Part shown: positions 26,261 through 37,335 of the stretch, piece by piece
Layout of the letters: each line of letters starts with the position of its first letter
Numbering within the stretch: position 1 is the first letter of the stretch
Position numbers and translations under genes: made by a program
The notes under the pieces: model-generated
Databases searched by the model: none
What the model was told of the DNA's origin: nothing
What the model saw: the letters and a program-made list of their open reading frames with translations, nothing else
Source: Hydrogenovibrio crunogenus
GTDB lineage: Bacteria; Pseudomonadota; Gammaproteobacteria; Thiomicrospirales; Thiomicrospiraceae
NCBI RefSeq assembly: GCF_004786015.1
Contig: NZ_CP032096.1
Coordinates: 930,001-994,000 of the forward strand
DNA: 64,000 nt
Direction of reading: 5' to 3'

Positions 26261-26881
26261 TTAGAATTGTTTAATCGTGGCGGTCACTACACCCCAAATA
26301 ACAATGTCGGATTCTTCTCTGACAGGGATAGGGGGATAGTTATCATTTTCGGGCACGAGCCACGTGCCGGTGGATTTGATGGAGAGCGTTTTCACGGTCA
26401 GTTCGCCATCCAAAGCGGCGATAACGATTTTGCCATCTTGTGGGGTCAAACTTCGATCCACTACTAAAATATCGCCATCTTGAATGCCCGCTTTTTTCAT
26501 CGAGTCACCCTGTACGGTCAATAGAAACGTGGCTTGTTTGTTTTGAATGAGTTTGTCGTTTAAATCCAGCCGCGTTTCCACGTAATCATCCGCCGGACTG
26601 GGAAAACCAGCCACCACTTTATGACTGTGCAGGGGAAGCAACACCTCTTCATTAAATTCCGGAAGTTGAATCTGTAATTTATCGCCCGCCAAGGCCTGCG
26701 CTTCTTGTAAGGTTTTTTGTTGTTGCTCGGCTTCCGCCTGTTCTGAAAGCCAGTGTTTTACAACTGTGACTTTTGATTCCGGCACCCGAATCACCTTGGT
26801 ACCTTCGCCGAATTTTCCGGAGCCTTTTTTGCGGCCTGCGCCTTTTCTTGCACCACCTGCTGTCGTGTTTTTTTCTGCCAT
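26261..26881 (-). CDS. umuD: UmuD-like self-cleaving protein with DNA-binding-like N-terminal extension
   Basis: A 206-residue member of the LexA/UmuD peptidase S24 family. The cleavage site Ala91-Gly92 (VVAGFPSP), the nucleophile Ser127 in VQGDSMKKAGI and Lys164 in GELTVKTL have exactly the spacing of E. coli UmuD (35 and 37 residues). UmuD' joins UmuC to form DNA polymerase V. Unlike the 139-residue E. coli protein, this one has about 67 extra N-terminal residues, with a basic GGARKGAGRKKGSGKFGEG motif and a RVPESKV turn. Longer UmuD proteins such as Acinetobacter UmuDAb also act as repressors, which may be the case here. It is divergent from umuC. Confidence 0.88.
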   Translation of the reverse strand: MAEKNTTAGGARKGAGRKKGSGKFGEGTKVIRVPESKVTVVKHWLSEQAEAEQQQKTLQEAQALAGDKLQIQLPEFNEEVLLPLHSHKVVAGFPSPADDYVETRLDLNDKLIQNKQATFLLTVQGDSMKKAGIQDGDILVVDRSLTPQDGKIVIAALDGELTVKTLSIKSTGTWLVPENDNYPPIPVREESDIVIWGVVTATIKQF

Positions 26882-26897
26882 TTGCCTGCTTTTATTT

Positions 26898-26952
26898 GAA
26901 TTCTGTTACAGGAATTATAAAAGATAGACTATAATTTTTGTAACAAAATTCA
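26898..26952. promoter_or_regulatory. Divergent umuD/umuC promoters with paired TGTNACA palindromes
   Basis: Two palindromes share the core TGT-N-ACA: CTGTTACAG at 26903-26911 and TTTTGTAACAAAA at 26936-26948. Their centres are 35 bases apart. A plus-strand promoter can be read as TTACAG (26907-26912), 17 bases, TATAAT (26930-26935). A minus-strand promoter can be read as TTACAA (26943-26938), 18 bases, TATAAT (26919-26914). Each palindrome covers one -35 element. This differs from the E. coli LexA box, CTGT-N8-ACAG. Confidence 0.65.
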
Positions 26953-26979
26953 AAAAAACGTTTAGGGGCATGAAAAATT

Positions 26980-28332
26980 ATGACGGTTTTTGCACTGGTG
27001 GATGGCAACAGTTTTTATGTATCTTGTCAAATAGCGTTTGAACCCGCATTAAAGAACCGACCCGCAGTGGTCTTGTCGAATAATGATGGCTGTGTGGTGG
27101 CGGCGAACGCTAAGGCGAAAGCGATTGATGCCTTTTTGAAACAGCAGAAAACGCATTTGGGTCCAGGCGGGTATAAAGCCGCACGGCCGGAAAGTATTAT
27201 GTTTCAACCTTACTTTAAGGTGAAGCGGTATTTAGACCAGATCAATGCGGTGGTGTTTAGCTCCAACTATGAATTGTATGCCGACATGAGCAGTCGAATG
27301 CATTCGATTTTATCCGGCTTTGCTGTCCAGCAAGAAATCTACTCGATTGATGAAAGTTTTTTGGATTTATCAGGCATGTCTTTATCCGATTTCACGACGT
27401 ATGGCGAAGAGATGAAGCGTACGGTGATGCAGTGTTTAGGGTTGCCGGTGGCGGTCGGATTTGGATCGTCTCGAACCTTGGCAAAGCTGGCGAACCATTT
27501 GGCCAAAAAACAACCAGATCATCAGGACGTGTTGGATTTGACGGTGTTATCGGAAGGCAGTTTGAATGCTTTACTTAAAAAAGTTGCGATTCGAGATGTG
27601 TGGGGCATCGGCAAAGGATTGTCCACCAAACTGGAAATGCAGGGCATTCTCTCCGCATATGATTTAAAGATCAGTGATCTTAAGTTCATCCGAAAACGCT
27701 ATTCCATTACGTTGGAGCGTATCGTAAGAGAGTTGAGAGGAGAGTCGTGTTTGTCTTTAGGGGCTTTAAAAACATCGGATCGACAAATCATTTCTTCTCG
27801 CTCTTTTGGAAACCCTGTGACGGAATATGCTGAAATGGAACAAGCGGTGGCAAGTTATATTGTGCGTGCGGCAGAAAAAATGCGTGCCCAAAACAAAGTG
27901 TGTCAGTTTGTGACCGTATCGATTAGAACCAGCCCTTTTCAAGGCAGGCAACGTTACTATCAGAATGCACAAACCTTACCTTTAATTTACCCTTCGGACA
28001 GTTCTGTCTTGTTAATCAAATTAGCGAAACGTGCTTTAAGATCAATCTGGCGGTCAGGCTACGCCTATCAGAAAGCAGGTGTGGTTTTATCAGGGGTAAC
28101 GGAAAAAGGTGCGGTTCAGATTGACTGCTTTGCCCCCAATCCGCAATATTCGGCGAACCCAAAATCAGATCGTTTAATGCAGGTCATGGATTCCTTAAAT
28201 CAACATATGGGAAAAGGAACGGTTCAATTGGCCGCAGAAGGGCATAAAAACGGCCAGACCTGGCAGATGAAGCGCTCTAAAATGTCAAAACGTTATACCA
28301 CACGTTGGGATGAGTTATTAACAGTACGTTGA
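26980..28332 (+). CDS. umuC: DNA polymerase V catalytic subunit UmuC
   Basis: UmuC is a Y-family polymerase for error-prone translesion synthesis. The 450-residue protein has the N-terminal metal-binding motif FALVDGNSFYVSCQ, the typical PAVVLSNNDGCVVAANAKAK stretch, the second catalytic motif YSIDESFLDL, and the helix-hairpin-helix region with VWGIGKGLSTKLE. The C-terminal part has the little-finger domain and a UmuC-type tail. Length agrees with the usual 420-450. TTAGGGG lies about 12 bases before the ATG, a rather long spacing. Confidence 0.95.
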   Translation: MTVFALVDGNSFYVSCQIAFEPALKNRPAVVLSNNDGCVVAANAKAKAIDAFLKQQKTHLGPGGYKAARPESIMFQPYFKVKRYLDQINAVVFSSNYELYADMSSRMHSILSGFAVQQEIYSIDESFLDLSGMSLSDFTTYGEEMKRTVMQCLGLPVAVGFGSSRTLAKLANHLAKKQPDHQDVLDLTVLSEGSLNALLKKVAIRDVWGIGKGLSTKLEMQGILSAYDLKISDLKFIRKRYSITLERIVRELRGESCLSLGALKTSDRQIISSRSFGNPVTEYAEMEQAVASYIVRAAEKMRAQNKVCQFVTVSIRTSPFQGRQRYYQNAQTLPLIYPSDSSVLLIKLAKRALRSIWRSGYAYQKAGVVLSGVTEKGAVQIDCFAPNPQYSANPKSDRLMQVMDSLNQHMGKGTVQLAAEGHKNGQTWQMKRSKMSKRYTTRWDELLTVR

Positions 28333-35667: not shown

Positions 35668-37335
35668 CTAACGGTTAGATTGTGCCGTCTGTAGCATCTC
35701 TTCCGCATGTTTCAAGGTTTGTTCAGTGATTTTCATTCCTCCGAGCATGCGCGCTAATTCTTGCACGCGCTCTTCTGTTTGGAGTGCGATCACCTGAGTG
35801 GTGGTTTGGTCATTTTGGGTTTGTTTGCTGATGTTCAGCTGCTGATCACCATAGGCCGCTACTTGCGCGAGATGGGTGATCGAGAAGATTTGGCGGTGTC
35901 GTCCCAATTGTTGCATTTTTTGACCGACCACTTCAGCGATGCCGCCGCCAATGCCAACGTCGACTTCATCAAAAATCATCGACGGCAAGCTCGCCACCTC
36001 CGCACTCGCGACCTGTATAGCCAGACTGATTCGTGAAAGTTCCCCACCCGACGCAACTTTGGCAAGCGGTTGTAGTGGTTGGCCTTTATTGGCAGTCACT
36101 TTAAACTGGGTACTGTCTAATCCTAGGCGAGTCGCTTTGTCGGATGCTAGAACATCAATGGCAAACTGGCCGTTTTCCATACCGAGTGTTTGCATGGTTT
36201 CGGTCACGGTTTGACTGAGTTGTGAGGCGGCTTTTTGACGAGAAGCGGTTAGAGCTTCAGCGGCTTGATTAAACTCTGACCAGGCCTGGTCAATATTTTG
36301 TTTCAGCTGTTCAAGTGATTCGCCAGATTGCATTAAACCGGCCAAACTGGCTTGGATTTCTTGATGTTTGTTAATCAGGTTTTCCGGATCAAGCTGATAT
36401 TTTTTGGCCAAACCAAACAGCTCCGATAAACGTTCGTCGACCACTTGTAACCGTTCAGGGTCTAATTCGACCTGGTGGTTTTGTGATTGGATGTCATCGG
36501 CGACTTCCTGACATTCAATCTGAATGCTATTCAGCTGTTGCAAGACATCGGACAATTGTGGTGAAAATTCGCTGACTTTTTCGAGTTCAGAAATGGCATG
36601 GCTGAGTTTTTCAGTGACACCGCCATCGCCTTCTAGGATGTCATAGGCGGTAAAGACCGATTGCTTGATTTCATTGGCGTGCGACAAACTGTTTTGTTCT
36701 TCCGACAACGCTTCAAATTCATCTGCTTGCGGCTGAACTTTGTCGAATTCTTGTTGCTGAAAGCTCAGCAGTTCAATTTTGCTTTGGCGGTCTGTTTGGT
36801 CATTGAGCAACGTTTGGTATTCTTGATTGAGTTTTTGCCAGGCCTGGTAGGCTTTCTCCGTCTCATTCAGTAAGGCGTCATGTTGAGCGTAAGCATCTAA
36901 AAGCTCCAATTGCTTACTGGTATGCATCAGCGATTGGTGCTCGTGCTGACCATGAATATCAATCAAGAGACTGCTCAGCATCTTTAACTGTGAAACCGAG
37001 GCGGGTAAACCATTAATGTAGGCTTTTGAACGTCCTTCTGACGTCAGTGTACGACGCAACAAACATTCATTGTCTTCATCCAATTCATTCTCTGCCAACC
37101 AGGCCTGAACTTGTGGCAGATTGGTAATATCAAAATCGGCGGTAATGTCCGCTTTTAAGGTGCCATGGCGCACCAAACTGCTGTCGGCTCTTTCGCCTAG
37201 CGCCAGCCCTAAGGCATCGAGTAAAATCGATTTTCCGGCACCGGTTTCCCCGGTTAAGGTGGTGAACCCTGTGTCAAAGTTGAGTTGAAGTTTTTCGATA
37301 AGAGCAAGATTTTGAATCGACAATTCTTGTAGCAT
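35668..37335 (-). CDS. recN: DNA repair protein RecN
   Basis: RecN is an SMC-like ATPase that helps repair double-strand breaks. The 555-residue protein has Walker A in TGETGAGKSILLDALGLALG, a long coiled coil around residues 160-370, the ABC signature SGGELSRISLA and Walker B MIFDEVDVGIGG. The start MLQELSIQNLALIEK is standard. It is 42 bases downstream of nadK, forming a nadK-recN operon as in many gammaproteobacteria. Two exact copies of CCAGGCCTGG lie within it, plus a one-mismatch copy at 37099. Confidence 0.96.
   Translation of the reverse strand: MLQELSIQNLALIEKLQLNFDTGFTTLTGETGAGKSILLDALGLALGERADSSLVRHGTLKADITADFDITNLPQVQAWLAENELDEDNECLLRRTLTSEGRSKAYINGLPASVSQLKMLSSLLIDIHGQHEHQSLMHTSKQLELLDAYAQHDALLNETEKAYQAWQKLNQEYQTLLNDQTDRQSKIELLSFQQQEFDKVQPQADEFEALSEEQNSLSHANEIKQSVFTAYDILEGDGGVTEKLSHAISELEKVSEFSPQLSDVLQQLNSIQIECQEVADDIQSQNHQVELDPERLQVVDERLSELFGLAKKYQLDPENLINKHQEIQASLAGLMQSGESLEQLKQNIDQAWSEFNQAAEALTASRQKAASQLSQTVTETMQTLGMENGQFAIDVLASDKATRLGLDSTQFKVTANKGQPLQPLAKVASGGELSRISLAIQVASAEVASLPSMIFDEVDVGIGGGIAEVVGQKMQQLGRHRQIFSITHLAQVAAYGDQQLNISKQTQNDQTTTQVIALQTEERVQELARMLGGMKITEQTLKHAEEMLQTAQSNR
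36280..36289. repeat. CCAGGCCTGG palindrome inside recN (first)
   Basis: An exact copy of the recurrent palindrome in recN coding sequence, extended to GACCAGGCCTGGTC, a perfect 14-base palindrome. Confidence 0.85.
36838..36847. repeat. CCAGGCCTGG palindrome inside recN (second)
   Basis: A second exact copy in recN, 558 bases from the first, in the coiled-coil region where a Gln-Ala-Trp is encoded on the minus strand. Confidence 0.85.

Follow-up and report, generated by a model that had tools for sequence, protein, structure and literature searches.

The umuD-umuC locus

The window, i.e. the whole stretch of 64,000 nucleotides of Hydrogenovibrio crunogenus DNA analysed here, harbours a umuD and a umuC gene that lie divergently on either side of a 98 bp intergenic region. 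The features of this locus are, in order of position:

26261..26881, minus strand: umuD, 206 aa, an N-terminal module (putatively operator-binding) joined to a self-cleaving S24 UmuD domain
26390..26392, minus strand: codon of the catalytic Lys164, placed by alignment
26501..26503, minus strand: codon of the catalytic Ser127, placed by alignment
26606..26611, minus strand: A91 and G92 codons, encoding the predicted cleavage site, an AG pair that UmuDAb and LexA also have
26747..26860, minus strand: codons of residues 8-45, the UmuDAb-type N-terminal module, conserved and with no Pfam family
26896..26918, no strand: putative operator O1, TTGAATTCTGTTACAGGAATTAT, overlapping the umuD -10 and the umuC -35
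26914..26919, minus strand: candidate umuD -10, TATAAT, a perfect box that is absent from the strict promoter scan
26930..26935, plus strand: candidate umuC -10, TATAAT, also a perfect box and also absent from that scan
26931..26953, no strand: putative operator O2, ATAATTTTTGTAACAAAATTCAA, overlapping the umuC -10 and the umuD -35
26980..28332, plus strand: umuC, divergent from umuD

The core of UmuD matches the profiles Peptidase_S24 (E 7e-32) and UmuD NF007621 (E 2e-50), with the UmuD-type self-cleaving S24 domain running from residue 87 onward. As in a UmuDAb-type repressor UmuD, this domain possesses a Ser-Lys dyad and an AG cleavage site, and A91-G92, S127 and K164 are invariant amongst 17 aligned relatives. 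The exact spacing of the self-cleavage residues, claimed in an earlier note on this DNA, is confirmed: G92, S127 and K164 are separated by 35 and 37 residues, equal to the spacing in E. coli UmuD, for which G25-S60-K97 are taken here to be the reference positions. The 67 extra N-terminal residues described in the same note are also real (91 minus 24). This UmuD is the only one encoded by the complete, one-contig genome (2,453,259 bases), in which just two S24 genes occur, the other encoding a 153-aa LexA without a DNA-binding domain, and umuC is the sole Y-family polymerase gene found. A contig scan with the single protein, which returned 7 loci, places its close relatives in Thiomicrorhabdus and Thiomicrospira. 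In a tree of the UmuD core, the 30 family sequences group together (support 99/98), but the tree is used lightly, as it has few columns and long branches, omits 14 loci including UmuDAb, and mislabels L253 and L255, both of which carry the module.

Operators between umuD and umuC

The intergenic region contains CTGTTACAG at 26903 and TTTTGTAACAAAA at 26936, previously described as twin TGTNACA sites. Their positions and the 35 bp between the centres of O1 and O2 stand, but the operator is really TTGA-N5-GTWAC-N5-TCAA, with each heptamer being the centre of a larger 23-bp dyad. When the 98-bp region was subjected to 2000 dinucleotide shuffles, one equally good site arose in 8 and two arose in none. 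The proposal that each site covers the -35 of one of two divergent promoters holds in part: each operator core contains a weak -35 box (TTACAG / TTACAA) positioned 18 bp from a TATAAT, whilst a strict scan calls no promoter in the region. A LexA box had been thought missing from the shared promoter, and no CTGT-N8-ACAG is apparent there by reading; together with the lack of any wHTH match in the genome, this led to rejection of a LexA box reading of the sites.

In PMC11332147, the operator of UmuDAb is given as TTGA-N4-GTWAC-N4-TCAA, with the GTnAC core mattering more than the arms, and UmuDAb is reported to bind it; this operator sequence was also seen in locus L093. The umuD promoter of H. 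crunogenus thus carries the same GTWAC core and TTGA/TCAA arms, with an arm spacing of N5 as opposed to the N4 of UmuDAb.

With regard to conservation within the family (Thiomicrospiraceae), an N5 operator matching at least 12/16 positions lies upstream of umuD in 25 of 30 loci (shuffles: mean 1.12, maximum 4), and in all 24 of the 24 loci for which umuC was found to be divergent. A good upstream operator is missing from the remaining five umuD loci (L022, L027, L028, L031 and L032). Allowing one mismatch, the N5 pattern yields 86 strand-matches in 60 family genomes, compared with 10 for the reversed control, and 31 of the 60 genomes are matched. The corresponding N4 search returns 33 matches versus 13, and the Acinetobacter spacing was therefore rejected for this family. 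A looser search of the H. crunogenus genome, with two mismatches (117 versus 66 control matches), was too noisy to use. The palindromes picked out in the earlier note hence prove to be conserved, extended operators across the family.

The N-terminal module of UmuD

Ahead of the S24 domain, the 206-aa UmuD displays the motif GGxRxGAGRKKGSG-FGExTKVxRVPESKVxxIKxWL. Its 30 family orthologues have H-GGxRxGAGRKKGSG-xFGExTKVxRVPESKVxxIKxWL in common, followed by a variable linker and then the S24 domain, and a match that includes the module is present in 46 of 62 family genomes. No family in Pfam or NCBIfam covers the module, which returns only weak matches, two to PHROGs of unknown function and one to CdrS (E 0.024), and no ribbon-helix-helix match was obtained in Pfam or PDB profile searches. 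An AF2 model of the full 206-aa protein has a mean pLDDT of 55, and a separate AF2 model of residues 1-66 displays a single confident helix (35-65) and no recognisable DNA-binding fold.

What had been offered as an analogy with Acinetobacter UmuDAb proves to be homology, as the two proteins have a common N-terminal module and a near-identical operator. The A. baumannii UmuDAb of the public record (locus L093, recognised as such by the published operator upstream) starts MPKKKEFEHGGARENAGRKAQFNEPTKVIRVPESQVNFIKNWL and is 53% identical to the 206-aa UmuD over a 38-residue row of the module. According to PMC4807011, the UmuDAb mutations K40P/R41P and E24K relieve repression, and the primers printed there translate to RVPESQVAFI(KR to PP)WLLDN and GRKA(E to K)YQKPTK, i.e. 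to the same motif. Due to this identity, and to the mutated residues falling within the shared motif, the UmuD extension, which corresponds to UmuDAb residues 1-59, is on sequence grounds a homologue of the UmuDAb repressor domain.

The module and operator beyond the family

The module occurs in 34 of 370 Gammaproteobacteria genomes (27 of 273 genera), a set that includes two very short, weak matches in G147 and G311. Amongst 24 upstream regions from outside the family, one of which (L237) is in fact from a family member, N5 operators with at most one mismatch are found in 3 and N4 operators in 1 (shuffle means 0.0 and 0.05, respectively), whilst many module-bearing UmuDs of other families have no clear GTWAC operator, N5 sites with at most two mismatches being present in only 6 of the 24 (shuffle mean 0.25). 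Further outside-family loci display, by eye, a variant with a GTAC core.

The module is also found alone, in proteins of 41-91 aa, most of which have the same operators nearby. Genome G219 possesses three such proteins of 90-91 aa, none with an S24 domain and all three with 2-4 tandem operators directly upstream, mostly 32 bp apart. Two phage contigs similarly encode module-only proteins of 41-46 aa, in gene runs that either begin at an operator or have one upstream. Their locations are:

L303:1663-2004, L304:26-364 and L305:1459-1855: stand-alone module proteins of G219, one of them near an integrase-like gene
L312:1171-1311 and L313:1186-1314: module-only proteins of phages

Two other phage candidates, L314 and L315, have no good operator nearby. 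For phage UmuDs that carry the module, perfect N5 operators are present at L268, L274, L280, L281, L282, L291 and L293, and a perfect N4 operator at L267; others, e.g. L275, L277, L278 and L284-L286, have no operator within 200 bases of the start used. The stand-alone modules beside operators tie the module to the operator without UmuD, and no other evidence speaks as strongly for direct reading of this sequence by the module.

These occurrences are relevant to a different explanation, in which some other host regulator binds the operators and the N-terminal extension merely lengthens a UmuD arm used in contacts with polymerase or RecA. The arms of E. coli UmuD reportedly do contact partners, and the module has no recognised fold, both of which would suit such a role. 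The same operator, however, precedes stand-alone module proteins that have no S24 domain, as well as phage UmuDs, and it also precedes UmuDAb, described in PMC11332147 as a binder of that operator; an arm-only function is consequently judged unlikely.

LexA in H. crunogenus and its relatives

The winged-helix domain of LexA (PF01726) has no match in the one-contig H. crunogenus genome, although controls were matched, and it was not found at the N-terminus of UmuD. By this measure the genome is without LexA, as in the UmuDAb-DdrR system, which answers the question raised in the earlier note of whether a lexA gene exists elsewhere, although a LexA-like C-terminal domain (CTD) protein without a DNA-binding domain is still present:

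L002:1402-1863, equivalent to G000:C1:1365320-1365781: headless lexA, 153 aa, whose C-terminal domain scores above the lexA equivalog cut-off

Headless LexA keeps the AG site and the Ser-Lys residues, with 30 conserved residues (MSNVAYLIPKRNQKLQL...) in place of the winged helix. This form (CTD of ~155 aa) is present in 53 of 62 family genomes, with a broken copy in G020, whilst a full-length LexA-like protein occurs in 4 of 62 (genus g2) and neither form in another 4. The two genes occupy different genomic places: by eye, the full-length lexA-like gene of the g2 genomes G001, G002 and G004 (L297, L298 and L299) lies between clpB-like and yggS-like genes, and headless lexA has an asparaginase-like gene downstream in G000 (the genome studied here) and G026, being located behind a yciI-like gene in the former. 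The single g2 UmuD examined (G002, L300) is without the module. Across the Gammaproteobacteria, a LexA DNA-binding domain is present in 9 of 34 module-bearing genomes versus 231 of 336 others (Fisher p 2e-6, or 1e-4 without the Thiomicrospiraceae, kinship being ignored in both).

The persistence of headless LexA raises the prospect that this protein (153 aa, no wHTH) senses damage and, together with another DNA-binding protein, acts on these operators, and that UmuD only responds. Its CTD, with the AG site, is conserved in the 53 genomes noted above in addition to the broken copy, and an operator is found in its promoter in 4 of 28 scored loci, plus G026. Yet the protein has no DNA-binding domain of its own, and in G000 and most relatives its promoter is without an operator, making it very improbable as the damage sensor.

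Extent of the regulon

Besides O1 and O2, the N5 pattern has just one match in the H. crunogenus genome, an orphan site. The suggestion that the palindromes might also lie upstream of further DNA-damage genes fails in this genome, as recA, recN and headless lexA are without an operator, with scores below the background of the position weight matrix (PWM), and a genome-wide SOS regulon under these sites was rejected. This argues for a small polymerase switch rather than a full SOS regulon. The recN gene lies within the window itself (35689-37335), with a promoter that has no operator. The umuD sites themselves served to train the PWM, and its background is high owing to background loci that the loose operator pattern brought in.

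Amongst relatives, operators are seen at recA in G026, at recN in G028, G030 and G061 (two further genomes having weak sites at a distance), and at a second umuC in G006. Such sporadic sites at other damage genes indicate that the polymerase switch has been extended in some relatives. The scans of recA and recN include three loci chosen for their existing operator matches (L157, L159 and L160); without these, a PWM score of at least 8.3 is reached at recA in 0 of 29 and at recN in 3 of 27 scored loci, with two of those three recN sites being far upstream, at -237 and -260. The notion that these sites are no more than conserved promoter sequence unconnected with damage control, for which the weak -35 elements inside them might speak, is scarcely credible against a 23-bp dyad conserved well beyond the hexamers, a requirement for exact spacing (N5 86:10 versus N4 33:13) and the presence of the dyad at recN, recA and a second umuC in some relatives.

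A proposed mechanism and its relation to known systems

Module homology, operator conservation, the catalytic residues and their spacing, the absence of a LexA DNA-binding domain, a single UmuD and a single Y-family gene were all established by computation. On this basis, UmuD is probably an autoregulated UmuDAb-type repressor, with RecA-stimulated cleavage both derepressing umuD and umuC and yielding UmuD'. It is from these features that we infer DNA binding, repression, RecA-stimulated cleavage and a dual role as repressor and polymerase subunit. A dimer, or pair of dimers, of UmuD would bind O1 and O2 through the N-terminal module, shutting off umuD itself and umuC; since O1 and O2 each overlap one promoter at its candidate -35 and the opposite promoter at its -10, a bound protein is expected to block transcription of umuD and umuC alike. 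Upon DNA damage, RecA filaments would stimulate cleavage at A91-G92, parting the module from the dimerising S24 domain, such that umuD and umuC would become derepressed. The UmuD' released (residues 92-206) would then combine with the sole UmuC to give polymerase V. With one UmuD and one Y-family gene in the genome, any active polymerase V would have to draw its UmuD-type subunit from this protein, and a dual role is expected here, unlike in Acinetobacter. This step is weakened by the finding in PMC4807011 that UmuDAb did not substitute for the E. coli protein in polymerase V.

Regulation by UmuDAb is itself already known. The H. crunogenus system resembles Acinetobacter UmuDAb-DdrR in its UmuD-type S24 domain with an AG site, its homologous N-terminal module, a promoter that bears a GTWAC-centred operator flanked by TTGA/TCAA arms (autoregulation, presumed here), control of an error-prone polymerase (likewise presumed) and a genome without LexA. 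It differs in having N5 rather than N4 spacing and two operators, in the divergent gene being umuC instead of ddrR, and in the persistence of headless LexA. Canonical SOS control by LexA similarly relies on a self-cleaving S24 domain joined to an operator-binding N-terminus (putative here), but H. crunogenus UmuD has no winged helix, its promoter no CTGT-N8-ACAG box by reading, and its regulon is tiny. E. coli UmuD shares the core fold family and the spacing of cleavage and catalytic residues, whereas the protein described here has 67 more N-terminal residues that include the module, an AG rather than CG cleavage site, and a gene that diverges from umuC rather than sharing its operon. Francisella FddR, as presented in PMC13148647, is also an S24 protein that replaces LexA, in that case over a small damage network, but is derived from lambdoid repressors, not from UmuD. 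Within the open-licence PMC literature, no account was found of UmuDAb-type regulation outside Acinetobacter, the N5 operator, a divergent umuD-umuC layout, a single dual-role UmuD or the stand-alone module.

In broader terms, there is perhaps an even chance that the module is an uncatalogued, mobile DNA-binding domain of ~40 residues with its own operator code (TTGA-N4/5-GTWAC-N4/5-TCAA), which stands by itself in phages and mobile elements and in many lineages is joined to UmuD, there being enriched in genomes without LexA, and that in Thiomicrospiraceae repressor and polymerase V precursor are one protein, one cleavage event sufficing both to turn on the mutagenic polymerase and to make it. 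In a sulfur-oxidising marine family without a normal LexA, a polymerase subunit appears to double as its own repressor, and the module and operator run through free-living chemolithoautotrophs of this family, phages, plasmids and stand-alone proteins. This would point to a general route for LexA replacement, and would provide a new small DNA-binding domain to study. It also offers a harmless, non-pathogenic model whose repressor should serve at the same time as a polymerase subunit, making the coexistence of both roles in one UmuD testable.

Operator-like sites near mobile elements

The orphan operator-like site of the H. crunogenus genome (C1:2364687-2364709; L150:1688-1710) is near an integrase-like gene, with no clear target gene behind it, and a similar site near an integrase-like gene is seen in G014 (L151). 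In three genomes of genus g5 (G023, G032 and G034), an operator is located at the start of a transposase gene that is TnpB-like (IS605-type, by eye), at L155:1716-1738, L162:1713-1735 and L167:1631-1653, which suggests either damage control of a transposon or an element end that resembles the operator by chance.
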